Below are positions 15,812 through 57,740 of a DNA stretch of 64,000 nucleotides, one piece after another (positions within the stretch are counted from its first letter, which is position 1; each line of letters opens with the position of its first letter). This stretch comes from Paenibacillus sonchi. GTDB lineage: Bacteria > Bacillota > Bacilli > Paenibacillales > Paenibacillaceae. The notes below the pieces were generated by a model. It saw only the letters and a list, made by a program, of their open reading frames with translations, was not told the origin of the DNA and made no database searches. The stretch spans positions 5,766,001 through 5,830,000 of the forward strand of contig NZ_CP068595.1 in NCBI RefSeq assembly GCF_016772475.1, read 5' to 3'. The position numbers and the translations under genes are program-made.

Positions 15812-15909
15812 AAATATAAGAATTTATATGTTTCACGCTATAAATTATCCTTCTATTTCTCGCTGAAACACCCCGTCCTTTAAAAGGACGGCGTAGCCGT
15901 TTCCACTTG
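15812..15909 (-). repeat. Structured intergenic repeat, copy 1
   Basis: Copy of a ~99-bp element also found at 40624-40722 and 57642-57740. Read on the minus strand it starts CAAGTGGAAACGGC, has an inner hairpin CCGTCCTTTTAAAGGACGG, then GAAATAGAAGG and an AATTTATA/TATAAATT-type stem around TAGCGTGAA. This is the most diverged full copy. It lies between convergent genes and touches the terminator at 15771-15811. Confidence 0.8.
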
Positions 15910-15937
15910 TTTATTCCATTAGTACCTATTGAAAAAG

Positions 15938-16507
15938 TTAATCATCCGTCTGCGGCTCCCAGTTGCGGATGCCATTATCCTCCAGAATTCCGAGCGTAAC
16001 ATCCGAGATGTGCGGGTCTGCCAGCAGTTTTTCTCTGACCTTGAATTTGATATCATCCGCATCGGCCAGGGTCATCCCCTTCTTCAGCTCGATCAGCCCC
16101 TCGACGTGATAATATCGCTCCTCCTGCAAAATACGCATTTGGTAAATATCCGTCACCTGCGGTTCGTCGAAGATGATCCGGTCGACCCGTTCTTCAATCT
16201 CCGGAGGGGCAGCTACACCGATAAGCCCGACCATATTGTCATATCCCACGCGAAAAGCAACCCCGATCATCATAAAGGCAATCAGAATGCTGGACAAACC
16301 GTCAAGCAGCTTGAAGCTGGTAAAGGCGGTCACCAGCACGGCGAGCATCGCCAGTGCCCCGCCGCTTGTGGCTACCAGATCTTCATAGAACACCAGGCGG
16401 GTCGGCGGTGCGGCTCTTTTGACATTTTTAAGTGATGCGGTGAATTTCCTCAATCCTTTGGCTTCGATTCTCGATTCATTTCTATCACATGCGGGGATAG
16501 GAGGCAC
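15938..16507 (-). pseudogene. Cation diffusion facilitator, 5'-truncated
   Basis: C-terminal part of a CDF metal-cation exporter. The last transmembrane helices (GGALAMLAVLVTAF, LSSILIAFMMIGVAFRVG) and the cytoplasmic dimerisation domain (VDRIIFDEPQVTDIYQMRIL, HISDVTLGILED) are intact. The first ~120 residues, including the first transmembrane helices and metal-site Asp residues, are missing. Upstream sequence switches directly to the stop of the VOC gene 8 bp away, so this is a real 5' deletion and not a frameshift. Unlikely to transport metal. Confidence 0.75.
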
Positions 16508-16515
16508 CTGTTAAT

Positions 16516-16927
16516 TTACTCCGGGTCCGGCAGGTTGAGCTGCCAGGTCACGCCGAACCGGTCGGCAACCCATCCGAATTTGCGGCTGAAGGGATATTCA
16601 CCTAATGGCATCAGAATTTGCCCCCTGAGATAATTGTTCAAAAACAGCATCAAGCTCTGCTTCACTCGCGCAATTGACATACAGTGAAATAGACGGTGTG
16701 AAAGAAAAGCCGTGCTTCACGTGGCTGTCAATGCACATGAAGGAAGCTCCCTTGATCGTAAATGAAGCATGCATCACCGTTCCCTCTGCTCCGGCTTCAC
16801 CTGGGCCATAACGCTTAATGCTGGTTACTTCCGAACGGTCGAACAATGAAACATAGAAATTCATCGTCTCTTCAGCCTGTCCTTCAAACATCAGAAATGT
16901 GCTGATTCCTGGTTGTGCATGGTTCAT
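16516..16927 (-). CDS. VOC-family (PhnB-like) protein, frameshifted
   Basis: Glyoxalase/bleomycin-resistance fold protein of the PhnB type (~138 residues when repaired): N-terminal [21 protein letters not shown], middle [18 protein letters not shown]. The frame breaks in the run of five C (G on the coding strand) at 16621-16625. Adjusting the run continues into [16 protein letters not shown] and [16 protein letters not shown], the conserved family ending, with a stop at 16516-16518. Function in this family is usually unknown. It directly precedes the truncated CDF gene. Confidence 0.8.
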
Positions 16928-16966
16928 TTGCCCTCAGCTCCCTTTAGTCATTGTGCTTGCCCTATC

Positions 16967-18820
16967 TTATTCTACCGAATCGGAATTGGACCTGCCAGTT
17001 CCAGTACCGGTTCCAATGCTGCCTCCTTGCGCTGTCTCTGCAAATCCCGTTTTGATCCACAGCCTGGAGATATCAAGAAAACCAAAAGAACCGGTATGCA
17101 GGCCGAACAGGCTCTGGTTGAGCTGCGCTCTTTTGTTCAGATGGGAGCCGTACAGAACCCAGCAGTTGTCACGAATCAAGGATTCCGCACGCTCCAACAG
17201 CAGAATTCCAGCCGCCTCCGGCACCCCGGCAAAATCCTGCAGCTGCGCTTCGATCTCGTCCCGCTGGCTCTGCTGCAGCAGCGAATAAAAGTGATTGGAC
17301 CGGTTCATGAAATAGTTAATCATCCCCCATTGCCAGTCGTCCTCCAGCACCTCCTCCGCAAGCAATAGATCGGCCTGCCGAAAAAGCTCTCCCATATTAA
17401 AATTGTAATAGGGTGCAAGACGGAGGTTCAGACCGATTCGTGCTCCGCGCTGCTGCAGCCACTCCGCTTCTTCCCGTTCTTCTTCCCGCCTGGATGCATA
17501 GGCAAGCGTGATCTCTTCTCCCTGATAGCCGCTGGAACGCAGCAGCTTTTCCGCTGCTTCAAAGGAAGGCCGGTTCCACAGGGTGCGGCGGCTTATCCAG
17601 GGCAAAAAACTGTCCGCCGGTGTGATCCGGTTGCCCCCCAATTCACGCACCAGCGCTTCCGGATGGTACAGCATCCGCAGCACCTGCCGGAACAACGGGT
17701 GATGCTGCCGCCCATTCCGGCGAAAGTTCATCATAATATACCTGCAGCCCAGTGCCGGATAGTCAATGCTGAGATTGGCACACTCTCCCTCACCGGCGCC
17801 GGTCCCACCCGGCTCCGTGTCCGGCAGCTGATAAGTACGGTCATTATAGCCCAGCTCCGGCACATACCAGATTTCAACCCGGTCGAGCAGCGGCCGTATC
17901 GCATAATAATCATCAAAAGCTGCCAGCACCAGAACCTTCTCGTTGTAATCCAATAGGCGGTAAGGGCCTGTACCAATCGGCTGATGCAGGAAATCCACAT
18001 CATATGGCACTATGGACATGTGCACACAGCTGAATAAATGCAGAAAGAACAGATTGGGGCGCGCCAGATCGATGCGGATACGGTGATCCCCCTGAAGCTC
18101 GACCGATACAATATCCCGGTAATGCCAAGAGACCGGACTTTGCCCGTCAGTCAGCCGCAGCAGCGTCTCTTTCACATCTTTGGAGGTCAGAAACCTGCCG
18201 TGATGAAAACGCACTCTCTTACGCAGATAGAATATATAGCTGGTATGCTCCGGATTGGCCTCCCACATATGGGCCAGTCCCGGCAAAAAGCTGTTGTTCT
18301 TGGCATCATAGATGACGAGCGTGCTGCAGATCTGTTCGATCAGGTAGGATTCAAAGGCTCTATACACTGAAGCGGGGTCCAGCTTCTCCATTCGCCGGTT
18401 GCGGATGATGCGCAGCGTATCCAGCCCGGTAATGGATTCAGTCTCACTGTGGTAGCCCATATGCATATTTAAAAGCGACAAGAGGCGCTCCTGCAGCGGA
18501 CCGTTCACCTCGGGCAAGCCAATCAGCTCGATCCCCTGTTTGATTTTCCCCTTGCCGGTAAGCTCTTGAAGATGCTCCTCCAATACCTCTTCCACGCTCC
18601 GCATAAAGGCCATCCCGGATTTATGTCCTCTCCCCCGCCCCGGCTGCCACTCTATGCAGCCTTTGTCTTCCAGCTTGCGCAGAATGAATTTTACATTACG
18701 GGGAGTGCAGCACAGGACCGAAGCCAGCAGCTCTATAGTCACCGGAATCGGCTCCTGGAGTCTGGAAAGGGGATTCAAGGCCGAAGCCAACCGCAGAAAA
18801 TGTACGATATTGTTATCCAT
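16967..18820 (-). CDS. SgrR-type regulator with substrate-binding domain
   Basis: A 617-residue protein with an N-terminal winged-helix domain (VTIELLASVLCCTPRNVKFI, residues ~25-60) followed by a family-5 extracellular-solute-binding-like domain (VRFHHGRFLTSKDVKETLLR and IGTGPYRLLDYNEK). This is the SgrR architecture, in which the binding domain senses a small molecule and controls transcription in the cytoplasm; no signal peptide is present. It is divergent from an MFS transporter with 181 bp between them, so it probably regulates that gene. Confidence 0.87.
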   Translation of the reverse strand: MDNNIVHFLRLASALNPLSRLQEPIPVTIELLASVLCCTPRNVKFILRKLEDKGCIEWQPGRGRGHKSGMAFMRSVEEVLEEHLQELTGKGKIKQGIELIGLPEVNGPLQERLLSLLNMHMGYHSETESITGLDTLRIIRNRRMEKLDPASVYRAFESYLIEQICSTLVIYDAKNNSFLPGLAHMWEANPEHTSYIFYLRKRVRFHHGRFLTSKDVKETLLRLTDGQSPVSWHYRDIVSVELQGDHRIRIDLARPNLFFLHLFSCVHMSIVPYDVDFLHQPIGTGPYRLLDYNEKVLVLAAFDDYYAIRPLLDRVEIWYVPELGYNDRTYQLPDTEPGGTGAGEGECANLSIDYPALGCRYIMMNFRRNGRQHHPLFRQVLRMLYHPEALVRELGGNRITPADSFLPWISRRTLWNRPSFEAAEKLLRSSGYQGEEITLAYASRREEEREEAEWLQQRGARIGLNLRLAPYYNFNMGELFRQADLLLAEEVLEDDWQWGMINYFMNRSNHFYSLLQQSQRDEIEAQLQDFAGVPEAAGILLLERAESLIRDNCWVLYGSHLNKRAQLNQSLFGLHTGSFGFLDISRLWIKTGFAETAQGGSIGTGTGTGRSNSDSVE

Positions 18821-19001
18821 ATTGAGTTCTCCTTTAAAGGTGAAAGAGAGGAGGGAAAGCTTACACTTTTATTTCCCCCTTTTATCTGTACAATTATACA
18901 CATGCAGACACGCCTGTGTCATATCTATCCGTATTTTTTGAACAGTCCCGGTAAGCTTTCACCCCAAAATTCAGCAATCAGATTAGGAGATCCGCAATTA
19001 C

Positions 19002-20240
19002 ATGAAACAGCATTTGCAGCAAATCCATCCCTTGGCCTGGACAATTATCATTGGCACCATGTTCGGCCGTCTGGTAACCTCGATGAGCATTCCTTTTTTA
19101 TCCATTTATTTAACCCAGGTTCTTGGCGCATCACATTCACAGACCGGTATAACCGTTGCAGTCAGCTCATTGGCAGGCGTGCTGATCAGCTTCTATGGCG
19201 GGTACATTTCCGATGTCTTCGGCCGCAAAATCGTCATGCTGGTCTCTGTATTCGGCTGGGCATGTGTCTTTTTCGGCTTTTCCACAGCGCAGCACATCTG
19301 GGTCTTTTTCCTGGTGAATACGCTGAATGGCCTGTGCCGTGCCGTATTTGAACCCACTTCTCGTGCGCTGCTCTCGGATATTACCCCGCCGGATCATAAA
19401 CTGCTGGTCTTCAATCTGCGGTATGCAGCAGTTAATCTGGGTGTTGTGTTTGGCCCAATCATCGGTTTGCAGCTGGGTTCGGCGAAATCCACCTTCCCGT
19501 TCGTGATCGCCGGAGTTGTATATATTGCTTACGGAATCGTACTCTTTATGCAGTTCTCGGCTCATCGCGCCAGTCTGCCTGTACGTTCGGAAGCACGTGC
19601 TCCCAAGCTGCGTGAAGCGCTGGCCGTCACCGGGCGGGACCGGGTATTTTTGCCGGTGCTGGTGGGGACTGTCTTTTGTGTGCTGGGCTATGGACATTTC
19701 AGTTCCACGCTGGCACAGTATCTGGCGGTCGACACTCATTTCTCGAATGGCAGTCAGGTTTTTTCCTACATGCTGTCGCTTAACGCAGTCACCGTACTGG
19801 TGGTCCAATACCCGATCGTCCGTACAGCCAGCAGATTTCCGCCGCTTGTTCCGTTAATTCTGGGAAATATTTGCGTGGCGCTCAGTCTGGTCCTGTTCGG
19901 AGTTGCTGGCGGGGTAGCCCTGCTGATGTTCAGTGTGGTGCTGTTCACCATCGGAGAGGTCCTGCTCTTTACCATGATGGATATGCTGATTGACCGGATT
20001 GCCAAGCCGGAATGGAAAGGCACGTATTTCGGCACGATAGGCTTCAATAATCTGGGTAACGTGATGGCCCCGGTTCTCGGAGGGCTGCTGCTTGATGAAT
20101 TCGGCGCCACGAATGGTCCGGCTGTATTTATTCCGCTGGCTCTAAGCACAGCACTGGGCCTTCCCTTCCTCATTACCGCACACAAACGACTGCATGCCAG
20201 AGAACGTGCCGAAGCAACAACCGCCTCTCAAAGCGCCTGA
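19002..20240 (+). CDS. MFS transporter
   Basis: A 412-residue major facilitator with twelve predicted helices. The loop 2-3 motif is GGYISDVFGRKIVML (G-x-x-x-D-x-x-G-R-[KR]). The start at 19002 follows TTAGGAGA. The divergent SgrR-type gene is the probable regulator, pointing to export or uptake of the small molecule it senses. Drug or sugar efflux are both possible. A terminator follows. Confidence 0.88.
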   Translation: MKQHLQQIHPLAWTIIIGTMFGRLVTSMSIPFLSIYLTQVLGASHSQTGITVAVSSLAGVLISFYGGYISDVFGRKIVMLVSVFGWACVFFGFSTAQHIWVFFLVNTLNGLCRAVFEPTSRALLSDITPPDHKLLVFNLRYAAVNLGVVFGPIIGLQLGSAKSTFPFVIAGVVYIAYGIVLFMQFSAHRASLPVRSEARAPKLREALAVTGRDRVFLPVLVGTVFCVLGYGHFSSTLAQYLAVDTHFSNGSQVFSYMLSLNAVTVLVVQYPIVRTASRFPPLVPLILGNICVALSLVLFGVAGGVALLMFSVVLFTIGEVLLFTMMDMLIDRIAKPEWKGTYFGTIGFNNLGNVMAPVLGGLLLDEFGATNGPAVFIPLALSTALGLPFLITAHKRLHARERAEATTASQSA

Positions 20241-20274
20241 TACAGGAAATGCTCTAGTCTGAACCTCATCATTA

Positions 20275-20312
20275 GGACCCGCTAGCAGCCGAAACGCTTG
20301 GCGGGTCTTTGT
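20275..20312 (+). terminator. Terminator after the MFS gene
   Basis: GGACCCGC (20275-20282) pairs with GCGGGTCT-type sequence at 20301-20308, followed by TTTGTT. Confidence 0.6.
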
Positions 20313-20398
20313 TGAGCGGGATTTTGCCTTAAATAGATTAAGTTAAATAGATTAGGTTTACATAATATTTAATATGTTATCTCGCTCCATGAGCTTTG

Positions 20399-21355
20399 TT
20401 AAACATACACCTTTTGCAATAATACAAGCTGCTCTTTAATATATTCCCTGATCTCAGGAGGCTGCATGATTTCCGCATCATTCAGCAGATTCATTACCTG
20501 CCTGCACGCCGATTCATAGCTGTACAGATTCAGTGTAAACTCCAGGTGTTCTTCGGTTTCTTTGACTTCGGCGATCTCATACTGTCTTAAGCCCTGCTGC
20601 CGGTCCTTGGCTGCCCGCACTACCACAGGGTAGAACTCATCTTGCTTACAGTTTTGCTTAAAAACATCATTCCCGCGCAGCCAATATTCCTCCAGGGAGA
20701 AATCTGCCGGGACTGTATATTGCCCATCCACCGCTTCAACGGATACAATCCGCTCACATTTGAACGTACGAACCTCTTCCGCTGCCTCGCAAAAAGCGGC
20801 CAAATACCACTCTCCCTGCTTCACAATCATTCCATAGGGATGCAGAATGCGGGAGGTCAGCTCCCCATTAACCTTACGGTAATGAATGCGGAGCAACCGG
20901 CATCTCCAGACGGCTGAGCGAAGCTGCTCCAGGCAAGGAAGCTCGGCCCGTTCCTCCCACCAGGGGGCGTTATCATAATAAAACCGGGTTTTGGCTTTGT
21001 GAATATCCTTCTGATAGGCAGCGGGCAAAGTATTTTCGAGCTTGAGCAGCGCGTTTTTTAGCTTCAGCCCGGATTCGGTCTGAGCATCAAAAGGGATACC
21101 CATCCCTGTCAAGTACAGATTGATCACCTCTTCACCGTGCAGCTTCTGCAGGTTGACTGAGTAACCTTCCATTAGAGAGATCCCGCCTCCCGGCCCAGGG
21201 GTTGTTACCATAGGAATCCCGGATTCTGCCAAGACATCAACGTCTCTGTATATGGAGCGAACTGAGGTTTCAAGCGCGTCCGCCAGCTCATTTGCCTTCA
21301 TTTTCCCTCTGGATTCAATCAGCAGAAGGATTGCAATCAAGCGATGCAGCCTCAT
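20399..21355 (-). CDS. YafY-type HTH/WYL-domain transcriptional regulator
   Basis: A 318-residue regulator. An N-terminal winged helix (MKANELADALETSVRSIYRD) is followed by a WYL domain (RIHYRKVNGELTSRILHPYG, KQGEWYLAAFC) and a C-terminal WCX extension. WYL proteins sense small or nucleic-acid ligands; no ligand can be assigned. The start at 21355 follows GGGGGA. Divergent from the Gfo/Idh/MocA gene. Confidence 0.88.
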   Translation of the reverse strand: MRLHRLIAILLLIESRGKMKANELADALETSVRSIYRDVDVLAESGIPMVTTPGPGGGISLMEGYSVNLQKLHGEEVINLYLTGMGIPFDAQTESGLKLKNALLKLENTLPAAYQKDIHKAKTRFYYDNAPWWEERAELPCLEQLRSAVWRCRLLRIHYRKVNGELTSRILHPYGMIVKQGEWYLAAFCEAAEEVRTFKCERIVSVEAVDGQYTVPADFSLEEYWLRGNDVFKQNCKQDEFYPVVVRAAKDRQQGLRQYEIAEVKETEEHLEFTLNLYSYESACRQVMNLLNDAEIMQPPEIREYIKEQLVLLQKVYV

Positions 21356-21470
21356 ATTTCCCCCCTCATGCGATAGTAAAAAAGTTTTGCCATGGTCACA
21401 CTATTCTCGCCACTCTGTTGTCAACATTACTTGTGTATGATGAATGTATCAAAGAAAGGAGCTGCTGTAA

Positions 21471-22403
21471 ATGAATATTGGCATACTGGGAACAGGCTTT
21501 GGAGCCTATCATGCAAGCCTATTGGCGAAAATGGAAGGTGTCACTCGCATCGTCATCTTTGGCAGAAATGAAGCCAAGCTGGACAAGCTGAAGGAGGAAC
21601 TCGGAGTTGAAATTACAACCTCCATTGAAGAGATTATATCCGATCCCTCGCTGGATCTGATCGATATTTGCCTGCCATCTCATCTGCACAGTCAATACGC
21701 CATCCAGGCGCTGAAAGCCGGAAAACATGTATTTTGCGAAACTCCGGTTTGCCTGAGCAGTGCGGATGCATTGGCTATGCGGCAAGCAGAGGAACGTTAT
21801 GGAAAGCGGATCATGGTCAATCAGTTCATCAAATTTGATCATGCCTATACCCGTTTGTATGAATCCGTAAACAGCGGACAATACGGCAAGCTGCTGCACG
21901 TAACCCTGAAAAGAGAAACCGCACCCTTATGGGGCGATCTGGGTCTGGGTAAAATTGCGGCAAACCTCATGATCCATGAACTGGACATGGTAACCTGGCT
22001 GCTTGGCAATCCTCCAATCTCCTCCATCTGGGGAAGCAGCAGCAAAGACGGCCAAGCGCTGGTCCATGCGGATTTTGACACACCACAATTTTCTGCCGAA
22101 ATCCTTGTTTCCTCGCAAATGCCAGAAGCTTATCCGTTCACGGTGGGATATGAAGCCTATTTTGAACAAGCTAAGCTTGTGTTCCATGAAGTAGATTATC
22201 CGGACGGCAAAGTGGAAGCCACGTTGTACGAATATGGACCGGCCGGTAAACAGGAGATTGTACTGGATCAAGGCAATCCTTATGAAAAAAGCTTGCGCTA
22301 CGCGCTCCAAGGCTTCACCAATGGCACCCCCTCCATTATTTCACTGGAGCATGCCGCAAACGCCGCTGAGGCTGCTTTTGAGATCACCCGAAAATTGGCT
22401 TGA
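21471..22403 (+). CDS. Gfo/Idh/MocA-family oxidoreductase
   Basis: A 310-residue NAD(P)-dependent oxidoreductase. N-terminal Rossmann motif GILGTGFGAYHASLL, conserved EKP-like segment here as HVFCETPVCLS (Glu-Thr-Pro in place of Glu-Lys-Pro), and the second-domain HELDMVTWLLG. The missing Lys of EKP, usually catalytic, suggests altered chemistry. The start at 21471 follows AAAGGAGC. The divergent WYL regulator is the likely partner. A sugar or inositol derivative is the usual substrate type. Confidence 0.87.
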   Translation: MNIGILGTGFGAYHASLLAKMEGVTRIVIFGRNEAKLDKLKEELGVEITTSIEEIISDPSLDLIDICLPSHLHSQYAIQALKAGKHVFCETPVCLSSADALAMRQAEERYGKRIMVNQFIKFDHAYTRLYESVNSGQYGKLLHVTLKRETAPLWGDLGLGKIAANLMIHELDMVTWLLGNPPISSIWGSSSKDGQALVHADFDTPQFSAEILVSSQMPEAYPFTVGYEAYFEQAKLVFHEVDYPDGKVEATLYEYGPAGKQEIVLDQGNPYEKSLRYALQGFTNGTPSIISLEHAANAAEAAFEITRKLA

Positions 22404-22730
22404 CATTACATAGCTGGTTTGGGAGCCGGGCACCCCCACCTTTTTCTGTTTTTAAGTATACAAGGACCGCTGTATGGTGTATTTGAGCGAGGTTGGTGGT
22501 TGGTGGGTGGTGTGTGGTTTTTGCTTTGTTATTGTGAATTTTTCATATGTTGTAATATTCATTATATGTCTGTTTCGAGCTGAATTCTTGAGTCGTATCG
22601 GCTGCACAAAAGCTGTATTTTGTACATATGTAGACTAAATATAAACTAATGACATAATAAAAGCCGCCGCCCCTTATCGGTGGACAAGAACATGGTCCCA
22701 TTGCCGACAAAGCCCCTTCTGACCACAAAA
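22404..22730. other. Gene-free stretch with GT-rich tract
   Basis: No convincing gene. Around 22488-22525 one strand is strongly G/T-biased (GTTGGTGG-type repeats). The position marks the start of the AT-rich accessory region. Confidence 0.4.
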
Positions 22731-22757
22731 AAAACAACTCCTTAGGAGTTGTTTTTA
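22731..22757. terminator. Terminator, AACAACTCC hairpin
   Basis: AAAACAACTCC pairs with GGAGTTGTTTT around a 3-nt loop, followed by T residues. It is immediately upstream of the rhodanese fragment. Confidence 0.6.
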
Positions 22758-23840: not shown

Positions 23841-24397
23841 AACCGATAACCTTAGCTTTTTCCATGAGTATCATCCACCTTATCTAAAATGTAGCTTGCT
23901 GGTGAGACTCGGCTCCCTCTTTTCCCCTTCGCAGGGCCTTTTTGACGACACGGCAGGATTCACTTGATATTGCGGCCTGGATTGTTGCTCGCCCAGTCTC
24001 TGACTGATACTTTTGTCGATGCGCTTTTACACACAGATTTTTCCATATGCAAGCACCCTAGCTACAAAGGTGGCTTGGCCCCTCCCTTGGTTGGATTTTC
24101 ACCAACTAGATAATGCGTGCCTCTGGGCACGCCCACAAAGAAAGGGGCCGGGATGGCTCCCGGCCTTGTCCTTTGCACTTCAGTTCATTTTCCCTTTCGT
24201 GCCACCGGGTAACCCACGGTTGCGAAGCGTGAGCACAGCAAAAAAGCCCAATGGAACGGCAGGCTCTTCGTCGGTCGCTTGGGCTTTTAGTGGGTGGTGG
24301 TTTTTTATAAAAGGCAGCGTAGCAGATGCATCAGTTCTATGACTTTACCACTAGAAGTAAATCGCTATTGTCTTACACTATAAAGGATTAACCAGTT
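23841..24397. other. Degenerate stretch with hairpins, no supported gene
   Basis: Several short overlapping frames occur but none has a family signature and ribosome binding site together. Two hairpins stand out: GGCCGGG/CCCGGCC around 24146-24165 and AAAAGCCCAA/TTGGGCTTTT at 24241-24290. The stretch looks like decayed mobile DNA. Confidence 0.4.
24241..24290. terminator. Possible terminator, AAAAGCCCAA hairpin
   Basis: AAAAAAGCCCAA pairs with TTGGGCTTTT across a ~27-nt arm region, with A and T tracts at both ends. It lies about 110 bp beyond the end of the minus-strand sigma-like pair. Confidence 0.5.
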
Positions 24398-40088: not shown

Positions 40089-40625
40089 TCATATACTGAA
40101 ATTTTGAAAGTAAGATCGTTGCTGCCACAAAAGGTTGGCTATTTCCAGGCTATCGTTAACAGCAAACCGGTGAATGCCCGGGACCTCCGGCAATTCCATT
40201 CCCCGTATGGAGTCCCAGACGGCCATTGCGACTATATTGCTTGCCTCTCCCAGCAGCGGGATATCCTCTTCACGGCGGAGCAGGACGATTTTGGGGTAAG
40301 GTTCCTGTTTGAAGCCCTCTACCAGTACATAATCATAGCCGGCAAAAGCTTCAATCAGCTCCGCCAGACTGCTTGTCCGTTCCTGAATCACCGACGTCCG
40401 GGCAGCGCTGGTGATGGCAACCGCTGAAGCCCCGGCCTGCCGCTGCTTCCAGGTATCCGTTCCCTCATGGTCCATCTCAAAATCATGGCCGTCATGCTTG
40501 ATGACCGCTACTGTGCAGCCTTTTTTACGCAACAGCGGAATCAATTCGCAGAGCAGGGTCGTTTTGCCGCTGTTTTTATAACCCACGATCTGGCACACGG
40601 CAGGTCTGCTGCTCCCTTTTTTCAA
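40089..40625 (-). CDS. mobB: Molybdopterin-guanine dinucleotide adapter MobB
   Basis: A ~178-residue GTP-binding protein of molybdenum-cofactor assembly that helps MobA. P-loop GYKNSGKTTLL, then VAVIKHDGHDFEMDHEGTDT and YVLVEGFKQEPYPKIVL. The frame begins at a TTG (40625) inside the intergenic repeat and has no clear ribosome binding site; a GTG at 40598 follows AAAAAAGGGAG at ~11 nt and may be the real start. It lies downstream of moeA on the same strand with 166 bp between them, most of it the repeat. No mobA is in the window. Confidence 0.88.
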   Translation of the reverse strand: MKKGSSRPAVCQIVGYKNSGKTTLLCELIPLLRKKGCTVAVIKHDGHDFEMDHEGTDTWKQRQAGASAVAITSAARTSVIQERTSSLAELIEAFAGYDYVLVEGFKQEPYPKIVLLRREEDIPLLGEASNIVAMAVWDSIRGMELPEVPGIHRFAVNDSLEIANLLWQQRSYFQNFSI

Positions 40626-40722
40626 ATATAAGAATTTATATGCTTCACGCTATAAATTTTCCTTCTATTTCTCACTGAAACGGTACCGTCCTTAAAAAGG
40701 ACGGCAAAGCCGTTTCTACTTG
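40624..40722 (-). repeat. Structured intergenic repeat, copy 2
   Basis: Nearly identical to copy 3 at 57642-57740. Minus strand: CAAGTAGAAACGGCTTTGCC, hairpin CCGTCCTTTTTAAGGACGG, CCGTTTCAGTGAGAAATAG, then GCGTGAAGCATATAAATTC. GAAACGG and CCGTTTC form an outer stem. Unlike the other copies it is followed by a gene and not a terminator. Confidence 0.85.
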
Positions 40723-47469: not shown

Positions 47470-48354
47470 ATGAAATGTCTGCAGATGAGCCTAAGGCTGC
47501 TCATTCTGGGGAGTATCTGTATAACAATGCACATTCCTGTGTCCTCCGCTCAGCCTGCAGCTGCCTCTCCGGAGATTCCAGGGCCGATTCTCCAGCTGGG
47601 CAGCAGCCAGAAACCAGAGGCCAATCCCAAGGATGAGCGAGCCATCCCCGCAGGTTCTTCTTCCCGCAGCGCGGCACAATCGCAAAAACGCACCAAAACA
47701 CTTACCCTCAGCCAATTGCTCCGCAAATATCCTGAAACGATCAAGACCCGGGGGCCTCACCGGAAACAAATCGCCCTTACGTTCGATGATGTGCCGGACC
47801 CCCGGTTCACCCCGCAGGTGCTGGACGTTCTGCGCAGGTATCATGTACATGCCACGTTTTTTATTGTGGGCAGCCGGGCTGAGAAGCACCCGGAGCTTGT
47901 GGCAAGGATGATCAGGGAAGGCCACACCGTCGGCAATCATTCCTACAATCATCCGCAGTTCGGGAAAATCAGCGTAAATGCGTTCCGCACACAGATTATC
48001 CGCACGGAAAATATCATCAAGACAACGGCCGGTTATAAACCGCGGCTGATCCGCCCGCCCTACGGGGACATCAGCGAACCGCAGCTGAAATGGGCTAAAG
48101 CCCACGGCTACAAGCTGGTGAACTGGAATGTGGACTCGCTCGATTGGAAGGGGCTGTCCAAATCACAGGTGCGGAATAATATCATTGCCAATGCCGGCAA
48201 AGGGGCCATCATTCTGCAGCATGGCGGAGGCGGCCGGGGCAGCGATTTGCGGGGAACCATTCAAGCACTGCCGGAAGTGATCAGCATCATGCGTAATAGA
48301 GGTTATACCTTCGTTACCGTCCCGCAGCTGCTTCAGATCAGCCCAAAAAAATAG
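47470..48354 (+). CDS. Polysaccharide deacetylase (NodB type)
   Basis: A 294-residue exported deacetylase (chitin or peptidoglycan GlcNAc). Signal peptide in the first ~28 residues (LLILGSICITMHIPVSSAQ), then a Pro/Ser linker and a NodB domain from ~residue 100: LTFDDVPDP (metal site), HSYNHP, RPPYGD and LQHGGGGRG. The start at 47470 follows AAGGAGGCG. Its stop codon is immediately followed by the partial repeat copy and a terminator. Confidence 0.9.
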   Translation: MKCLQMSLRLLILGSICITMHIPVSSAQPAAASPEIPGPILQLGSSQKPEANPKDERAIPAGSSSRSAAQSQKRTKTLTLSQLLRKYPETIKTRGPHRKQIALTFDDVPDPRFTPQVLDVLRRYHVHATFFIVGSRAEKHPELVARMIREGHTVGNHSYNHPQFGKISVNAFRTQIIRTENIIKTTAGYKPRLIRPPYGDISEPQLKWAKAHGYKLVNWNVDSLDWKGLSKSQVRNNIIANAGKGAIILQHGGGGRGSDLRGTIQALPEVISIMRNRGYTFVTVPQLLQISPKK

Positions 48355-48400
48355 AGAAATAGAAGAAGATTTTATAGTGCGAAGCATTTAAAATATATAA
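48354..48400 (+). repeat. Partial, diverged copy of the intergenic repeat
   Basis: GAGAAATAGAAGAAG..., TTATAGTGCGAAGCAT then TTAAAATATATA align with the right half of copies 2 and 3 (about two thirds identical). As in copies 1 and 3, a terminator hairpin follows directly. Confidence 0.55.
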
Positions 48401-48446
48401 AAAAGGAAACGGAACTGCCGGGCACCGGCATGCTTCGTTTCCTTTT
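48401..48446. terminator. Terminator after the deacetylase gene
   Basis: AAAAGGAAACG pairs with CGTTTCCTTTT, with inner stem GCCGG/CCGGC. It stands between convergent genes and likely serves both. Confidence 0.8.
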
Positions 48447-49495: not shown

Positions 49496-51616
49496 ATGAA
49501 CGTGAACGAAGAAGAAAAAAAGAATAACCATACCAGCCCGGCAACCGCCTATCTGAACCGTGACTTAAGCTGGATCGAATTTAACCGCCGCGTACTCCAG
49601 GAGGCGCAGGACCCGGACAACCCGCTGATGGAGCGGGCCAAGTTCCTGGCGATTGTGTCCAGCAATCTGGATGAATTCATCAGTGTCCGCGTGGCAGGAA
49701 TTCAGGATCAGATCCGGGCCGGCTATACCAAAAAGGATTTTACCGGCTATACCCCCTCCGGTCTCTATAAACGCCTCATCAAGCGGGTCAGCAAAATTAT
49801 TGCCGATCAATACCGGACATTCCGTGACATCTCCCGCAGTCTGCACAAGGAAGGCATCGTGTTTGTGGATTATGAAGACCTGACACCGGCACAGGAGTTG
49901 TCCATTGAACAGTATTACCGGGACATTATATTCCCTGTTCTGACACCCATGGCGGTAGACCAGAGCCGTCCCTTTCCGCTGGTGCACAGCCAGTTCATCT
50001 ATCTTGCCGTCGTGCTGACACGCAAGGACAGCCAGGAGGAAGAGCCATATTTTGCGATTCTGCAGATCCCTTCCAATCTGCCGAGATGCATTCCCCTTCC
50101 CCATCGTTCCAACAGCAAAAAACGGCAGTTTGTTTTTATAGAAGACGTAATCCGCCATCATATCCAGACGCTGTTCAGCGGTTATGATCCCGTTGCCGTA
50201 AGCGAATTCCGGCTAACCCGCAACTCCGACCTTACGATTGACGAGGAAGGTGCGGAGGACCTGCTTGAGGAGATTGAAAAGGAGCTGCGCAAACGCCGGC
50301 GGGGCGTCCCTGCCCGTCTGGAGGTCCAAAAAGGAATCCACCCTTATGCATTGGAGCAGCTGCAGGCTGAATTCGAGCTCGAGGATTTTGTCTTTGAGAT
50401 TGACGGACCGCTGGATCTTGGTTTCCTGCGCGGCTTCGCCGGCAGCCTGAAGGGCTTCAGCTACCTGCATGATGCGCCGATTGAACCGCTCTACCCTGCC
50501 GAGTTTGATGAGAATGAGGACTTCTTCGAAGTGCTGCGCGAACGCGATGTGCTGGTGTACCATCCTTATGAATCCTTTGATGCGATGACCGATTTCATTA
50601 CACAGGCCTCTGAAGATGAGCAGGTCATGGCAATAAAAATGACGCTGTACCGTGTCAGCGGAAACTCTCCGCTCATCAGTGCCCTCGCTGTCGCCGCTGA
50701 ATCCGGCAAGCAGGTCACTGTCGTTGTCGAGCTGAAGGCACGCTTTGACGAGGAGCGCAATATCGCCTGGGCGCGCAAGCTGGAGCAGTCCGGCTGCCAT
50801 GTCGTGTACGGGCTGGTTGGCCTGAAGACCCATGCGAAGATCACACTTATTGTCCGCCAGGAAGGGCCTGAACTGCGCCGCTATGTGCATGTGGGAACAG
50901 GCAACTACAACGACAGCACGGCCAAAGCCTACACGGACCTCAGCCTGTTCACAGCGAACAGCGAGATTGGTCTGGATGCTTCAGAGCTGTTCAACCAGAT
51001 GACAGGCTATTCGGCCAATCATGACTGGAATGCCTTCGTTGTGGCCCCGACCAGCATGAGCCTGTCGCTGCAAAAGCTGATTCTGCGGGAAGCTGAACAT
51101 GCCGCTGCCGGGCGTCCATCCCGGATCATCGCCAAAATGAACTCTCTGTCGAACCAGGAGGTCATTGACAATCTGTACAGCGCCGCCCAGGCAGGAGTGC
51201 CTATTGATCTGATTGTGCGCGGTGTCTGCTGCCTGCGGCCGGGGATAGAAGGCCTAAGCGAGCGGATCACGGTCCGCAGTATTGTAGACCGTTTCCTGGA
51301 GCATTCCCGGATCTATTATTTCGAGAATGGCGGCAATCCTGAGGTCTACCTGTCCAGCGCCGATTGGATGACACGCAATCTGACGCGGCGCATTGAACTG
51401 ATGTGCCCGGTGAAGGACCCGGTAATCCGCAAGCAGATTGTCAAAATTCTTGAGATCACTCTCAAGGATAATGTGAAATCCAGCTTTTTGCAGCCGAACG
51501 GATATTATGAACGTGCAGACGACAAAAAGGCCCCTTTCCGGAGCCAGTTCGCTGCTATGGAGGTTACGCGTTGGAAGGGAAGCCGAGCTTTACCTTCAGC
51601 CCCCAAACATTCCTGA
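49496..51616 (+). CDS. ppk: Polyphosphate kinase PPK1
   Basis: Makes polyphosphate from ATP at the inner membrane. A 706-residue PPK1 with N-terminal YLNRDLSWIEFNRRVLQEAQ, then SSNLDEFISVRVAGI, catalytic His regions in VGLKTHAKITLI and FLEHSRIYYFENGG, and VHVGTGNYNDSTAKAYTD. The start at 49496 follows TTGGAGGG. Its last 53 bp overlap the end of the convergent ppx gene, so the C-terminal tail (TRWKGSRALPSAPKHS) is antisense to ppx. A PhoP-box-like repeat precedes it. Confidence 0.94.
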   Translation: MNVNEEEKKNNHTSPATAYLNRDLSWIEFNRRVLQEAQDPDNPLMERAKFLAIVSSNLDEFISVRVAGIQDQIRAGYTKKDFTGYTPSGLYKRLIKRVSKIIADQYRTFRDISRSLHKEGIVFVDYEDLTPAQELSIEQYYRDIIFPVLTPMAVDQSRPFPLVHSQFIYLAVVLTRKDSQEEEPYFAILQIPSNLPRCIPLPHRSNSKKRQFVFIEDVIRHHIQTLFSGYDPVAVSEFRLTRNSDLTIDEEGAEDLLEEIEKELRKRRRGVPARLEVQKGIHPYALEQLQAEFELEDFVFEIDGPLDLGFLRGFAGSLKGFSYLHDAPIEPLYPAEFDENEDFFEVLRERDVLVYHPYESFDAMTDFITQASEDEQVMAIKMTLYRVSGNSPLISALAVAAESGKQVTVVVELKARFDEERNIAWARKLEQSGCHVVYGLVGLKTHAKITLIVRQEGPELRRYVHVGTGNYNDSTAKAYTDLSLFTANSEIGLDASELFNQMTGYSANHDWNAFVVAPTSMSLSLQKLILREAEHAAAGRPSRIIAKMNSLSNQEVIDNLYSAAQAGVPIDLIVRGVCCLRPGIEGLSERITVRSIVDRFLEHSRIYYFENGGNPEVYLSSADWMTRNLTRRIELMCPVKDPVIRKQIVKILEITLKDNVKSSFLQPNGYYERADDKKAPFRSQFAAMEVTRWKGSRALPSAPKHS

Positions 51617-53125
51617 ACGCCTTGAGGGCGTTCTCGATGTCCTCCAGCCCGATGAGGAGCTCACCTGCACCCTGCAGCTCCAGATCAAGCGTATTGCCGT
51701 GCAGGCGGGCTTCCAGCCCGCTTACAATGCCAATCTCGGTACTGTCCAGAGCAATGCTCAGCTGTACCAGTGTACCGAGCTTATGAATCCATTCCTCGTC
51801 GGAAGCCAGCAAAATGTCCTTGTGCGTCTGGGACAATTTCTGCTTCCGGCTTTTTGTGCTGTAAGAGGCAATCAAAGCGCCCAGAATCAGCTGGCGGTGG
51901 GTAAGCCCGCGGATCGGGGAATTCATCAGCCAGTAGCGCGTATGCCGCTTGGATTGATAATAATTGATATTGGAGCCGGTCCGGTGCAGCATGATGGACA
52001 CATAGATCAGCATCCGCTGCTCGTCCCGGTCCCCATCAGCATCAAAGGCGTCAAACAGGCTCAGCGCCAGCTTGTAGATGTGGTCCAGATGCCGCTTCGA
52101 GGTACGGATGTCAAAGCGGACAATCGTGTTCAGGCTGAATTCCAGGGCACTGTCGCGCACAGGCTGCCCGGGATCAAGCAGATCATGCAGCATGCCTTCC
52201 CGCAGGCCTTCTCCGCTGATTATGGCCTGGCTGGCCCCGAGATACCGGTACACCGTGTGAAAGATAATCAGGCCGGAGACGATGATATCCCCCGGCTCTT
52301 GGAGAGCCCGTCCAAATCCTTACGTTTCTCATACGGTATGGAAGGCAGCGTCTCCATAAATTTATCAATGGTCTCACCGGAAAGAGTATAGCCGTGTGAA
52401 TTCGGCAGTGAATAATCCCGCAGCTTCTGGTCCAGCTTCCCCAGGGAGCGCAGTGTCCCGCCAAGCCCGTAGAGCGGCAATCCCGGCCCGCTGTTCAGCC
52501 AGTCATGCTCCACCAGCCTCCCGGTCACATAGGCCTGAAGCTTGCGTACCTGATCACTGTTCCAATTGCCGTGGTGGCCGAACATCAGATTCGTATTCAC
52601 CGCGCCGAACGGGAAGGAGATGCTCTGCTGGTAGCGCCGTCCCCGGAACAAGGTGATCTCCGTGCTTCCGCCCCCGATATCTATCACAAAGCCATCCTGA
52701 ACATCAAAGGCGTTGATGACGCCCAGAAATCCAAAGTAGGCCTCCTGGTGTCCGCTGATGACTTCAATATGAATCTCCGATGCCTCCGAAAGGCAGGCGA
52801 CAATCTCCGTTGAATTCGCCGCATTTCGTATGGCCGCAGTGGCGCCGGCACGGATGTTATCGACCTCAAATTCGCTGCAAATCTCCTTGAACTGATGCAG
52901 GACTGGCACAATCGAATCCATGTCCCTCCGCTCCAGTCTGCCGTCCTTGGTAATTTTCTCGCTCAGACGAGCGGAGTATTTGCACTCCTTGATGATTTTG
53001 TAGCCTCCTTCCGGCGTCGTATCATAGATCACAAGGCGAATGGAGTTGGAACCAATATCAATGATGCCAATCCGGCGAAGATCATCTCTCATCTGTATGT
53101 ACTCCTTTTCAAGTTGATTGGCCAT
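51564..53125 (-). CDS. ppx: Exopolyphosphatase Ppx/GppA (frameshift)
   Basis: Degrades polyphosphate (or pppGpp) to phosphate, opposite in effect to ppk. About 520 residues when repaired. Motifs: GIIDIGSNSIRLVIYD, FVIDIGGGSTEITLF and a C-terminal HD-like helical region (MLIYVSIMLHRTGSNINYYQ). The frame breaks at 52289-52293, five C (G on the coding strand) that should be six; corrected: SKSRGDIIVSGLIIFHTVYR. The start at 53125 is near AAAGGAG. The gene converges on ppk with a 53-bp tail overlap. Confidence 0.92.
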
Positions 53126-53205
53126 CTATATACTATATCACCCATTTCCCCCAGGCAAAAGCAAAACGGCCGCCGAATCAGGTTCGGGGCCGTAAAAGGG
53201 CTGTT

Positions 53206-53928
53206 CTATAGGACTTTGCTTAAAAAATCCTTGGTGCGGGCATGCTGCGGATTGCCGAATACCTGAGAAGGATCGCCTTCCTCCACAATAATGCCGCCGT
53301 CCATGAACAGAATGCGGTCGCCCACTTCACGGGCAAAGCCCATCTCATGGGTAACAATCACCATCGTCATGCCGTCTTCCGCCAGCTTCTTCATGACCTC
53401 CAGAACCTCGCCGACCATTTCCGGGTCCAGGGCCGAGGTGGGCTCGTCAAACAGCATCACATGCGGCTGCATGGCAAGCGCCCGGGCGATGGCAATCCGC
53501 TGCTTTTGCCCGCCGGAGAGCTGGGCCGGATAAGCATCGCGTTTGTCGGCAAGGCCGACGGTCTGCAGCAGCTCAAGGGCGATTTTTTCCGCTTCCGGAG
53601 GCTGCTGCTTTTTCACTTTCAGCGGGGCCAGCATAATATTCTGCAGCACGGTTTTGTGCGGGAACAGGTTGAACTGCTGGAAGACCATGCCCATTTTTTC
53701 CCGGGTCACGTTGATATCATGCTTCCTGTCTGTAATGGACGCCCCTTCAAAGGTAATTTCGCCGCCTGTAGGCTGCTCCAGCAGATTGAGGCAGCGCAGG
53801 AAGGTGCTTTTGCCCGAGCCGCTGGGGCCGATAACAACGACAACTTCCCCTTTGTGAATCTGCAGATCAATCCCCTTCAGAATTTCCAGCTTGCCAAAAC
53901 TTTTTTGCAGGTTCTTAACGGCGATCAT
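53206..53928 (-). CDS. Polar amino-acid ABC transporter ATPase (GlnQ type)
   Basis: Drives amino-acid uptake. A 240-residue ATPase with Walker [10 protein letters not shown]-loop [11 protein letters not shown], signature [16 protein letters not shown], Walker [14 protein letters not shown] and H-loop VTHEMGF. It is the last gene of the three-gene transporter operon and its start overlaps the end of the permease gene by 14 bp. Glutamine, cystine or arginine are typical substrates in this family. Confidence 0.94.
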
Positions 53929-54573
53929 CCGTGTTCAGCCTCCTTTCCAATAAGCCCAGCACCTTCGACAAGGTGAAGGTAAGAACAAAATACATAACGG
54001 CGATCACAATTAAGGGATTCAGCCCCTCATAGGTTATGGTTGTTACGGATCTTGCCTCGAAGAGCAGATCTGCCACCCCGATCATGGACACAATCGAAGA
54101 CTCTTTAATGATCGTAATGAACTCATTGCCGATGGCGGGCAGCACGTTTTTGATCGCTTGGGGAGAACAATATAGCGCATGGTCATCCCCTGCCGCATGC
54201 CGAGCGAACGCGCTGCTTCGACCTGTCCGCGGTCCACCCCCTGGATACCGGCACGGAAGATCTCAGCCAGATAAGCGGAGCTGTTAATGGTCAAAGTGAT
54301 AGCCCCGGATTGGATCGGTGTAAACTCCAGGCCAAATTCGGGCAGCCCGTAATGAATTAGGAACAGCTGCACCAGCATAGGTGTGCCGCGCAGGAATTCT
54401 ACCCAGGCCGTCGCAATAAAACGCAGAATCCACAATTTGGACATCCGAAGCAGGGACACAATGATCCCAAGCACAAAACCGAAGAATACCCCCAGCACTG
54501 CCAACAGCAATGTGTACTTCAAACCGGAAAGAAAAAAATTGCGGTACTCATAAGCGATATCAAATACATTCAT
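53915..54573 (-). CDS. Polar amino-acid ABC transporter permease (frameshift)
   Basis: About 219-residue permease of the HisM/GlnP type. The first part has helix 1 ([20 protein letters not shown]) and [18 protein letters not shown]; the second carries the EAA loop continuation and last helices ([16 protein letters not shown]). The frames join at 54160-54163, where four G (C on the coding strand) should be five: [20 protein letters not shown]. The start at 54573 lies 10 nt after AGGAGGT. Between binding protein and ATPase. Confidence 0.9.
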
Positions 54574-54714
54574 TTTTGGCATAACCTCCTGTCTGCAAAA
54601 AAATAGAAAACAGCGGAGCACCGCCATTTTCAGATCATTCCCAATGATTTATGTCTTCCCTGCAGCAGCGGCTGCAGGGATTAAACTACTTATGACTACT
54701 TCAGGCCCTGAGAA

Positions 54715-55533
54715 TTACTTCTCGGCCAGCTCGCTTGCGGCTGCAACATACTCATCGATTTTGCCTTCGGAGTTCAGACGGGCCAGCGTCTTGTTCACCT
54801 GACCCAGCAATTCGTCGTTGCCCTTCTTCACACCGATCACATATCCGTCATCCTCTACCTCAGGTTTGGCATCAGTGATGGCCAGCCCCTTGACATTCTT
54901 TACGAAGGATTTGGCTACCGGACCTTCCATGATCGAGGCATCCACACGGTTCGACTGCAGCTGCAGCACGATTTCGGAAATTTTGCCCAGCGAAGTCAGC
55001 TGCGCGCCTTCAATCCCCTTGGCGATGTCTTCCTGAATCGATCCGGTCTGCACGCCCAGCTTGATGCCCTTCAGGGAATCCATGGTCGCAAACTTATCCT
55101 TGTCGGCTTCACGCACAACCACCGCTTGTTCGGCTTTGTAATAAATATCGGACAGCCCTACCGCCTTTGCCCGTTCCGGTGTTGGACTCAGGCCCGAAAT
55201 CACCATATCCACTCTGCCGCTTGAGAGCTCATTCAGCAGGGAATCGAAGGACAGATCCTTGATTTCCAGCTTAGCTCCCATATCCGCTGCAATTTCCTTG
55301 GCGATCTCAATGTCAAAGCCCACGATGGTATCCTTGCCGTCCACCACTTTGTGGAATTCATACGGAGGAAAATCGGCACTGGTTCCCAGTGTAAGCGTCT
55401 TTGTCGCAGTGGTGCTATTCGCAGGCGCACTGTTGCCGGTAGCTGCGTTATTTTCCTTGTTATTGTTGCCGCATCCGGTCATAAGACCTGCCACGAGCAG
55501 CATTCCTAATGAAAGTTTACCCCATTTGTTCAT
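54715..55533 (-). CDS. Polar amino-acid ABC transporter substrate-binding lipoprotein
   Basis: A 272-residue binding protein with a lipobox (GLMTGC) and Asn/Ala linker, then a family-3 solute-binding domain: TLGTSADFPPYEF, GFDIEIAKEIAADMGAK, LSFDSLLNELSSGRVDMVIS. The start at 55533 follows GGGGAGA. It is the first gene of the operon (binding protein, permease, ATPase). Confidence 0.93.
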   Translation of the reverse strand: MNKWGKLSLGMLLVAGLMTGCGNNNKENNAATGNSAPANSTTATKTLTLGTSADFPPYEFHKVVDGKDTIVGFDIEIAKEIAADMGAKLEIKDLSFDSLLNELSSGRVDMVISGLSPTPERAKAVGLSDIYYKAEQAVVVREADKDKFATMDSLKGIKLGVQTGSIQEDIAKGIEGAQLTSLGKISEIVLQLQSNRVDASIMEGPVAKSFVKNVKGLAITDAKPEVEDDGYVIGVKKGNDELLGQVNKTLARLNSEGKIDEYVAAASELAEK

Positions 55534-55587
55534 CTGTATATCTCCCCTGTTCTGTTCAAGTTCTCCAGTTGTTCCATTGACCGATTT

Positions 55588-55617
55588 ATTATAAATCAAC
55601 ACGTATGAATATGCAAA
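55588..55617 (-). promoter_or_regulatory. Promoter of the amino-acid ABC operon
   Basis: On the minus strand TTTGCA (55612-55617) and TATAAT (55588-55593) are 18 bp apart, 55 bp upstream of the binding-protein start. Confidence 0.55.
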
Positions 55618-55893
55618 GACAAATTTGTGACAAAGACTGTAAAAATGCGGAAGAAATCCACGCCGATGCTTGACTGCTTGTGCCGCTTCATTATGCACAT
55701 CCATTTAAAAGAAGTATATACTAGGTACTATCTCCAATAGATCCCGGAATAGCAGAAATGGTTCATGCTGTCTCTTCGGGTGGTATTAACTTGCTAACGG
55801 GCTCACAAAACTTAGCCTATGCTTACGATGCGGGTTTTATTTCGCAGTCGTTCACAGTGGTGATGCTCCACAACACTTTTAGGAGGTGCAATC

Positions 55894-57638
55894 ATGCTTT
55901 TGGAAGCTATGTACCATGTTCCCCGTGACAAATGGGCTTATGCCTACGATGCAATGACTATACATCTGCGTGTTCGCACCAAACGGGATGATGTGGACTG
56001 TGTAGTCGCGCTCACCGGGGATAAATACAATTGGAAAGACACCGCTTACGATATCATGATGGACAAAGCGGCCTCGGACGACAAGTTCGATTACTGGGAA
56101 GCCGCAGTCCGGCCCAAATATAAACGCCTCAGCTATACCTTCCGTGTGAGCAAAGGCAATGAAAGTGTATATCTGCTGGACAACGGTATCCAGACGGAAT
56201 ATCCGGCTCCCCCCAACCACTACTATGAGTTCCCCTACATACACCAAATCGATTTGTTCCAGGTGCCGAACTGGGCCAAGGATGCGGTGTTCTACCAGAT
56301 CATGACGGAGCGGTTCGCCAACGGCGATCCAGCGAATGACCCGGAGGGGACGGAGCCATGGGGCGGAACGCCGAAGCTGGATAATTTTTTTGGCGGAGAT
56401 CTGCAAGGCGTGCTGGACCATTTGGACGATCTGCAGGAGCTCGGGATCAATGCCATTTATTTTACCCCGCTGTTCGTCTCCCCTTCCAACCATAAATACG
56501 ATATCGTGGATTATAAAAGGGTCGATCCCCATTTTGGCGATAATGAGCTGCTCAAAACCGTTGTCGAGGAATGCCACTTAAGAGGAATCCGCGTGATGCT
56601 GGATGCCGTGTTCAATCATTGCAGCGACAAGTTCCCGCCGTTTCAGGATGTTCTGGAGAAGGGGGAGTACTCCGTATATAAGGACTGGTTCCATATCAAC
56701 TCCTTTCCGGCCGAAATTGTCGGCGGTATTCCTACGTATGACACCTTCGGTTTTTTTGGCAATATGCCGAAGTTCAACACCGCCAATCATGAGGTAAAAA
56801 CCTATCTGCTGGAGGTGGCCGAATACTGGATCAGTGAAATCAAGGCGGACGGCTGGCGGCTGGACGTTGCCAATGAAGTGGATCACCATTTCTGGCGCGA
56901 TTTCCGCAAAGTGGTCAAAGCTGCCAATCCCGAAGCCTACATTGTGGGTGAAGTATGGAGTGATTCCTTAACCTGGCTGCTGGGCGACCAGTTCGATTCC
57001 GTGATGAATTATCCTTTTTCCGGGACCGTATTGGAATTCTTCAACGGGGGCATGGACGGCATTACCTTCGGACACCGGATCGGCGCCCTGCTCATGCGTT
57101 ATCCGCAGCAGACCAATGAAGTGGTCTTCAATATGCTGGGCAGCCATGATACCCCCGGCTGTTGACGGTGGTGGGTGAAGACAAGCGGAGGCTTAAGCTG
57201 GCTGTTGTTTTTCTTTTTACTTTTATGGGGACTCCTTGTATTTATTATGGTGATGAAATCGGCCTTACAGGCCATGAAGATCCCGATTGCCGCAAGTGTA
57301 TGGAATGGGATGAAGCAAGCCAGGACCGCGAGCTGTATGACTTCTATAAGATGATGATTGCCCTGCGCAAGCACAACAAAGCGCTGCGCGAAGGCCGCTT
57401 CCGTATTCTGCAGGCGTGTGAGAATGACCCGTGCATCGTCTATGAGCGTGCGGATGATGTGATTCATTTTACGGTGTGGATGAATAATTCGCCGGAGCCC
57501 CGCATCCTCAGCCACCCGATGGAAACGGATGATTGGCAGGATGCCTTGACCGGAGACCCGGTTGCACCCGAAGAAGGGATGATGCATATCTCGCTCGACC
57601 CGTACGGATACCGGATTCTCAGCCGGGACCTGGGTTAA
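55894..57638 (+). CDS. GH13 neopullulanase/cyclomaltodextrinase-type amylase (frameshift)
   Basis: Hydrolyses maltodextrins in the cytoplasm. About 581 residues: N-terminal CBM34-like domain (VPRDKWAYAYDAMTIHLRVR), then the GH13 barrel with DAVFNHC, DGWRLDVANEVDHHF (nucleophile Asp), VGEVWSD (acid Glu) and GSHDT (Asp). The frame breaks at 57152-57156, five C that should be six; corrected: GSHDTPRLLTVVGEDKRR. The start at 55894 follows AGGAGGTG. It lies beside the glycogen genes, so it may process released glucans. No signal peptide. Confidence 0.9.
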
Positions 57639-57641
57639 ATC

Positions 57642-57740
57642 CAAGTAGAAACGGCTTTGCCGTCCTTTTTAAGGACGGTACCGTTTCAGCGAGAAATAGA
57701 AGGAAAATTTATAGCGTGAAGCATATAAATTCTTATATTT
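57642..57740 (+). repeat. Structured intergenic repeat, copy 3
   Basis: Starts 4 bp after the amylase stop: CAAGTAGAAACGGCTTTGCC, CCGTCCTTTTTAAGGACGG, CCGTTTCAGCGAGAAATAG, TTATAGCGTGAAGCATA and TTCTTATATTT. Outer stem GAAACGG/CCGTTTC, inner stem CCGTCCTT/AAGGACGG and a second stem AATTTATA/TATAAATT. A terminator follows at once. Confidence 0.85.

Follow-up and report, generated by a model that had tools for sequence, protein, structure and literature searches.

An intergenic repeat of about 99 nt, present as three full copies and one partial copy in a 64-kb window of the Paenibacillus sonchi genome (the whole stretch of DNA analysed here, C1:5766001-5830000 of the 7.78-Mb genome that we call G000), is a small non-autonomous mobile element rather than an RNA of 3' untranslated regions (3'-UTRs). 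We draw this conclusion from the combination of clean empty sites, the lack of target duplication and an orientation that is tied to replication. As to how the element moves, we think it fairly probable that its duplication-free insertion at the side of terminators is linked to the replication fork through single-stranded DNA, and that the enzyme is supplied in trans. A sequence-only reading of the window had proposed either a MITE-like element targeting terminators or a conserved 3'-UTR or small-RNA element. The first proposal survives in part: the element is mobile and prefers terminators, but it is no MITE in the strict sense, having neither terminal inverted repeats nor target duplications. 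The replication-strand bias, the duplication-free insertion, a longer form of ~138 nt and a 19-nt end common to other repeats go beyond that reading.

Copies were located with a covariance model, R1, built from own-genome copies with the three full window copies among them, so the R1 scores of those three are partly given by construction; all three were also recovered without it, by BLAST and, pairwise, by a repeat search. A genome-wide search with such a model had been proposed as a check; G000 holds 94 matches at E<=0.1 (150 scored candidates), some weak ones being antisense shadows of the palindrome, while BLAST gave 49 matches from 40 scored candidates. All R1 matches lie on contig C1, with 0 of 94 on the smaller contigs C2 and C3. 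Our analyses use 61 own copies: 62 were typed, one (6091278) was dropped for a missing flank, and the weaker of the 94 matches were left out.

Mobility shows in sites that one genome has filled and a close relative empty. The flanks of the 61 own copies and of 15 copies from the sister genome G043, which is 98% identical over the 57.6-kb site of the window, were used to look for empty sites in 20 fetched regions. Six of the 11 sites displayed for G000 and G043 are clean filled/empty pairs, four of them filled in G000 and empty in G043 (2947134, 4113849, 2271388 and 5846470) and two the other way round (4280000 and 4587979). Comparison with a sister strain had been advised as a way to find empty sites and target duplications; it gave the former, and none of the six clean sites has a duplication. 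One good example reads CTTCGTACAA|TTAAAAAAGCTGC when empty and CTTCGTACAA[98 nt]TTAAAAAAGCTGC when filled. Small differences occur at some clean sites, namely one T at 5846470 (a long form), flank substitutions at 2271388 and 4280000, and an extra 13-nt tandem unit in the empty 4587979 allele. The five remaining sites are filled in both genomes (4860374), hold a decayed long copy in G043 (1460749) or have other junction sequence (5991179, 3037570 and 5781812). G043 copy 1078918 is also present in G000 (2842310), where it is partly deleted. As for the window, the G043 comparison gave no clean empty site for the 15812 copy, and the place orthologous to the 57.6-kb copy is filled in G043; in several less closely related genomes it contains decayed or different sequence. 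Insertion is thus precise and duplication-free, and takes place before N-A-A-[AC]-AAA plus a hairpin. An IS110-type insertion was considered and rejected, since by our reading of the alignments the empty sites keep no shared core dinucleotide.

The element has moved recently. Ten copies fetched from the genome G016 are 92-100% identical to one another (median 97%) in unrelated flanks, and among the short copies of G000 there are 14 pairs at least 97% identical, one of which is a segmental duplicate; here, too, close copies have unrelated flanks, which argues for recent activity in both lineages.

The flanks of the 61 own copies reveal what is targeted. To the right, the consensus is N, A (70%), A (85%), A or C (57% and 30%) and then A, A, A. 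A run of at least four A falls within the first 12 nt in 47 of 61 right flanks versus three left ones, and a stem of at least 8 bp starting no more than 20 nt away was found in 38 right flanks, compared with eight left flanks, six at a +300-nt control and two shuffled right flanks. In 27 of these 38 flanks, 7-10 nt separate the junction from the stem's first G/C. Empty alleles already contain the A-rich motif, and the G016 copies have similar flanks. No tetranucleotide is conserved in the left flanks, and the flank as read from the opposite strand is a T-rich tract with no fixed word. The target is therefore the motif N-A-A-[AC]-AAA with a GC hairpin after it, in many cases a terminator; seen from the other strand, the element lands directly after a terminator-like hairpin and its T tract. 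Tandem pairs such as G043 3021651/3021748 would be accounted for if a single A tract were used more than once; a five-unit array (G012:C1:2218173-2218672) could alternatively have arisen by unequal crossing-over.

The four window copies of the sequence-only reading were all recovered. The 57642..57740 copy (+ strand, 99 nt; R1 E 4e-23, BLAST) is followed by the motif GAACAAA (57741..57747, +), of a kind that pre-exists in the empty sites of other loci, and by a terminator-like hairpin with a T run (57748..57789, no strand assigned) beside a convergent starch-synthase-type gene. The 15812..15909 copy (- strand, 98 nt; R1 E 8e-20, BLAST) leads into an A tract, hairpin and T run at 15772..15811, and at 48354..48400 (+) a decayed right half-copy (R1 E only 0.69; 48354-48392 is 85% identical to 57691-57729 over 39 nt by repeat search) overlaps the stop codon of a polysaccharide-deacetylase-type gene before another terminator-like hairpin with a T run (48405..48446). 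These three abutting hairpins fold at -24.8 to -27.7 kcal/mol. The 3' flank of the fourth copy (40624..40722, -; R1 E 3e-22, BLAST), which lies between moeA-type and mobB-type genes, folds at only -6.8; an A-rich target motif, GAAAAAA (40617..40623, -), is followed there by the mobB start region, with no terminator. Terminator hairpins thus directly follow three of the four copies, as had been noted. The A tract and GG described behind each copy are likewise present at all four; genome-wide only the A tract carries over, GG being merely the first G/C of whichever hairpin follows. Our terminator scan was limited to loops of 3-8 nt and simple stems, and it left the 57748 hairpin unlisted and listed a small hairpin inside the element instead.

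Element orientation matches the direction of the replication fork more closely than that of transcription. GC skew puts the origin of G000 at ~1.68-2.0 Mb and the terminus at 5.28-5.67 Mb. Our first guess for the origin, 2.03 Mb, found no support in the skew at 1.90 Mb, and orientation is thus given as a range: wherever the origin is set between 1.70 and 2.03 Mb, the strand opposite the leading strand carries 53-55 of the 61 own copies. Replication orientation is also followed by 46-47 of the 52 copies listed for G043 (63 matches in all) and by 72-75 of the 98 listed for G012 (114 matches); in G016, as read from 1.1-kb pieces, eight of nine fetched copies with clear local skew agree, and one more has no skew. 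Local coding, by comparison, favours the leading strand at 41 of 61 own loci (computed with the origin at 2.03 Mb, genes being called as longest open frames without annotation), and where both neighbouring genes are co-directed with the element, the fork orientation is still kept in 6-7 of nine cases.

The element has fixed ends, CAAG... to ...TATTT, and consists of CAAGTAG, a first hairpin (H1), a linker and a second hairpin (H2, AAATATAAG...CTTATATTT with a nested AT stem around GCGTGAAGC). In the 57642 copy, H1 occupies 57648..57687 (+; GAAACGG...CCGTTTC with a nested CCGTCC/GGACGG stem) and H2 57694..57740 (+; AAATA-AAG...CTTATATTT), the latter closing with a 19-nt terminal tag, CATATAAATTCTTATATTT, at 57722..57740 (+). 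No terminal inverted repeats were found, as CAAGTAG and the other-strand end AAATATAAG do not match. A long form of ~138 nt (133-143 nt), with an extra hairpin within H1, accounts for 15 of 61 own copies. The three full window copies, taken with a few flanking bases, have folding z-scores of -5.5, -5.8 and -4.1.

Both nested hairpins are conserved with strong covariation, in helices 2 and 3 of H1 and 4 and 5 of H2, in line with the earlier proposal to check for it. Among 48 matches, each from a locus of its own and mostly from separate genomes (46 distinct), 92.8% of the cells aligned to the model pair, and 19 of 35 pairs changed on both sides versus 7.0 in shuffled alignments (sd 1.5; 71 cells versus 21.3, sd 3.4), although this alignment was fitted to the structure, which favours the measure, and its rows are partly related and not independent. 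Sliding the partners by 1-3 columns lowers every covariation measure. A MAFFT alignment of 29 own copies gave five such pairs versus 0.9 shuffled, with two slid versions giving four and five. Locus L254 provides an example of compensatory change, from GAAACGG/CCGTTTC to TAAACGC/GCGTTTA, and the inner AT stem also varies to AAGTAT/ATACTT. A separate observation concerns two sets of orthologous copies, G000:C1:4812715 with G043:C1:3010199 and G000:C1:4860374 with its counterpart in L214, which differ in having an imperfect or a perfect palindrome in the H1 arm (99 versus 97 nt), a difference that template-switch correction of quasipalindromes would be expected to leave.

Covariation of this strength, together with the position of several copies between a stop codon and a terminator, would fit a conserved RNA (of a 3'-UTR, associated with terminators, or small and regulatory) whose function at each site preserves it there. 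We nevertheless regard such an RNA as highly improbable. The neighbouring genes are unrelated, with one copy sitting between moeA and mobB; the sites can be empty in the sister genome; and of the 57 own copies with a called left neighbour, 35 have that gene running against the element. Together with the replication-tied orientation, this tells against the 3'-UTR or small-RNA proposal. The Rfam scan of the window found no family at the copies, the best sub-threshold hit near one scoring 28.8 bits against a cut-off of 114.

The element is widespread. Within the genus, 71 of 100 genomes, G000 included, match at E<=1e-6, and an order-wide draw gave 71 matching genomes out of 296, comprising 41 of the genus, 12 from other genera of the family and 18 from elsewhere in the order. 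Of the 30 outside the genus, 29 have 1-9 matches and one reaches the 13 that were scored. An exact degenerate pattern matches four named genomes (Paenibacillus sp. HW567, P. helianthi, P. phytohabitans and P. jilunlii). Viral contigs (searched with one pattern), plasmids and phages gave no element match, and a literature search found no description of this Paenibacillus element. By eye, some older-looking G000 copies, L094 (3506486), L107 (2538067), L102 (2371217) and L111 (1494453) lie directly upstream of apparent ribosome-binding sites and start codons, where the element may have become a source of 5' leader sequence.

A terminator target, the absence of duplication and a fork-linked orientation together point to insertion during replication. 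The element would enter single-stranded DNA at the fork, where the lagging-strand template exposes a hairpin and T tract; the intermediate would be single-stranded or primed by the nascent strand, and an enzyme would act in trans. Landing behind terminators would be nearly neutral to the host, so that copies persist.

Several results count against this account. Origin and terminus were placed by the GC skew of fetched pieces only, and two of the three full window copies, at 15812 and 40624, break the strand rule. In a further 12 genomes, where the origin was only assumed to be at base 1, the rule holds for 79 of 105 listed copies, but the share differs between genomes, from 10/10 in G022, 8/8 in G094 and 24/27 in G069 to 0/5 in G109, 3/8 in G056 and 4/9 in G113. 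The comparison of filled and empty sites had no outgroup, and excision could also account for single polymorphic sites. No run of four A was seen in 14 of 61 right flanks, and 23 of 61 are without a stem of at least 8 bp by our test. A count of wobble cells to tell the folding strand gave 99 G-T versus 36 A-C, which shrinks to 40 versus 35 without two positions. Finally, none of the usual enzyme families accompanies the element: in a panel of 31 genus genomes with 23 carriers (E<=1e-6; enzyme families scored at E<=1e-5), Y1_Tnp is absent from eight carriers, GIIM from seven, RVT_1 from three, G016 among them, and the IS91-type Y2_Tnp from 19, being present in G003, G015, G016 and G043. G001 has 40 element matches at E<=1e-3 and none of the four. 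Among the eight element-free panel genomes Y1 occurs in three and GIIM in two. An enzyme may have been lost after the element spread; but G016, with its recent similar copies, has no match to Y1, GIIM or RVT_1, and G000 has none to Y2, so that no single one of these families fits both.

These enzyme counts bear on two other routes of movement. One would make the element a PATE- or REP-type passenger of a Y1 (HUH) transposase, of the IS200/IS605 family or TnpA-REP, that reads both hairpins as single-stranded DNA. Like the PATEs of Haloquadratum as that source defines them, the element lacks terminal inverted repeats and target duplications, has palindromes near its ends and is too short for a transposase gene (PMC3119063); IS608 and ISDra2 are described as using the lagging-strand template (PMC6006769); and GT[AG]G stands near the foot of H1 in 42 of 61 own copies. 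Set against this are the eight carriers with no Y1 match, the presence of GT[AG]G in only 26 of 48 cross-genome copies, a left flank with no conserved tetranucleotide, and the difference in sequence between H1 and H2. Searching 30 Y1 loci by BLAST with the element and its halves gave only short matches in L135 and L116 and, as the one locus with good matches, L142 of G042, a repeat-dense region where several copies stand as separate repeats around a frame-broken Y1 gene; no REPtron-like arrangement was recognised. We therefore judge a Y1 passenger unlikely.

Less likely still is a SINE-like RNA route, where an RNA ending in the 19-nt tag is reverse-transcribed from the 3' end of T-tract DNA at the fork. 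Its shared tail would explain how unrelated bodies come to have one end, and indeed a common 3' tag is found on different bodies and, nearly bare, beside A tracts. Two group IIC introns of G000 also lie behind a hairpin and T tract, a habit reported for such introns (PMC4424553), though their ends are unlike the element's. However, the carriers devoid of RVT_1 include G016 with its closely similar copies, and the left end of solo copies is constant where 5' truncation would be expected.

The tag itself deserves attention. With up to three mismatches, the pattern CATATAAATTCTTATMTTTNAAMAAA occurs at 54 places in G000 and the reversed pattern at none; a search among these places for right ends without the usual left half, as an autonomous partner might show, gave no gene-bearing unit. 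The tag also ends gamma-type repeats (...CTTCCCCCAAAA and then the tag) at L271, L276, L284, L285 and L294, and stands nearly bare, with 2-3 mismatches, at L297, L298, L300 and L301. By eye, an A-rich stretch and a hairpin lie beside all nine places; the gamma unit L302 has no A tract. That the tag terminates other repeat units too suggests that the last 19 nt are the recognised end, although the bare tags could alternatively be decayed copies. We tentatively raise the possibility of an undescribed fork-linked integration system that needs only a ~19-nt terminal hairpin tag and lands at terminator hairpins with T tracts, making unrelated tagged sequences (the element, gamma-type repeats and bare tags) mobile with no need of a known HUH transposase or group II reverse transcriptase. 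Another modular intergenic repeat, ~450 nt long, starts near AAAATCACCCTGGCGGGTGAATA and lies next to several copies, in many cases closing with a tagged gamma-type unit; it was seen at L271, L276, L284, L285, L294 and L296 and in the right flanks of own copies 1522749, 3067267, 3928837 and 7167165.

Comparison with known systems places the element close to several of them and inside none. PATE palindromes are described as resembling those of IS605-type transposons, and PATEs as carrying a 4-5 bp targeting sequence at the 5' end (PMC3119063); nothing of the former kind was seen for the element in the 30 Y1 loci, and its target is an A tract with a hairpin. We looked for palindromes related to those of IS605, for a fixed targeting word and for a Y1 partner in every carrier, and found none of these. 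We therefore do not file the element as a PATE, even though it works like a PATE or another single-strand element; that source also reports PATEs as mobile despite one strain having only pseudogenes of the IS200 type. REP and BIME sequences with TnpA-REP are likewise many-copy intergenic hairpin repeats with GT[AG]G near the foot of a hairpin (PMC6006769), and CGTC-tagged REPs, as described, share the lack of a dedicated transposase (PMC3733652). The element differs in its 99-nt units with two different hairpins in direct order, and GT[AG]G 0-2 nt 5' of the hairpin is too inconstant across genomes to make it a REP. Group IIC introns, too, are reported to insert behind terminator hairpins with a replication-strand bias (PMC4424553, PMC8919778), but the element has no ribozyme core or intron ends, and genomes free of GIIM or RVT_1 carry many copies. 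MITEs and SMRs are small transposase-free mobile repeats, and SMRs are also given as duplication-free and as preferring palindromes, yet both have the terminal inverted repeats that the element lacks (PMC3119063). Judged by these features, the element is also no classical MITE, REP, group II intron or Rfam RNA.

Two further features of the window may be recorded. At 23906-24145 (-), beside a hairpin, lies the 5' part of a group IIC intron (Rfam RF02003, 23965-24108, the only place where the window scan found an intron), which over 240 nt shares ~94% identity with full introns at other places of the genome; it looks like a truncated copy. Five AT-rich direct repeats of ~25 nt, 72-84% alike, at 9014, 11007, 20353, 31060 and 31692 are possibly an operator family.

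Overall, our study describes a widespread, recently active element of Paenibacillus with which the usual enzyme families do not track. It offers a testable handle on the movement of orphan short repeats such as the CGTC-type REPs, and its copies can serve as orientation markers for replichores. More generally, it illustrates that an intergenic repeat with a conserved fold and covariation need not be a regulator but can be mobile DNA.

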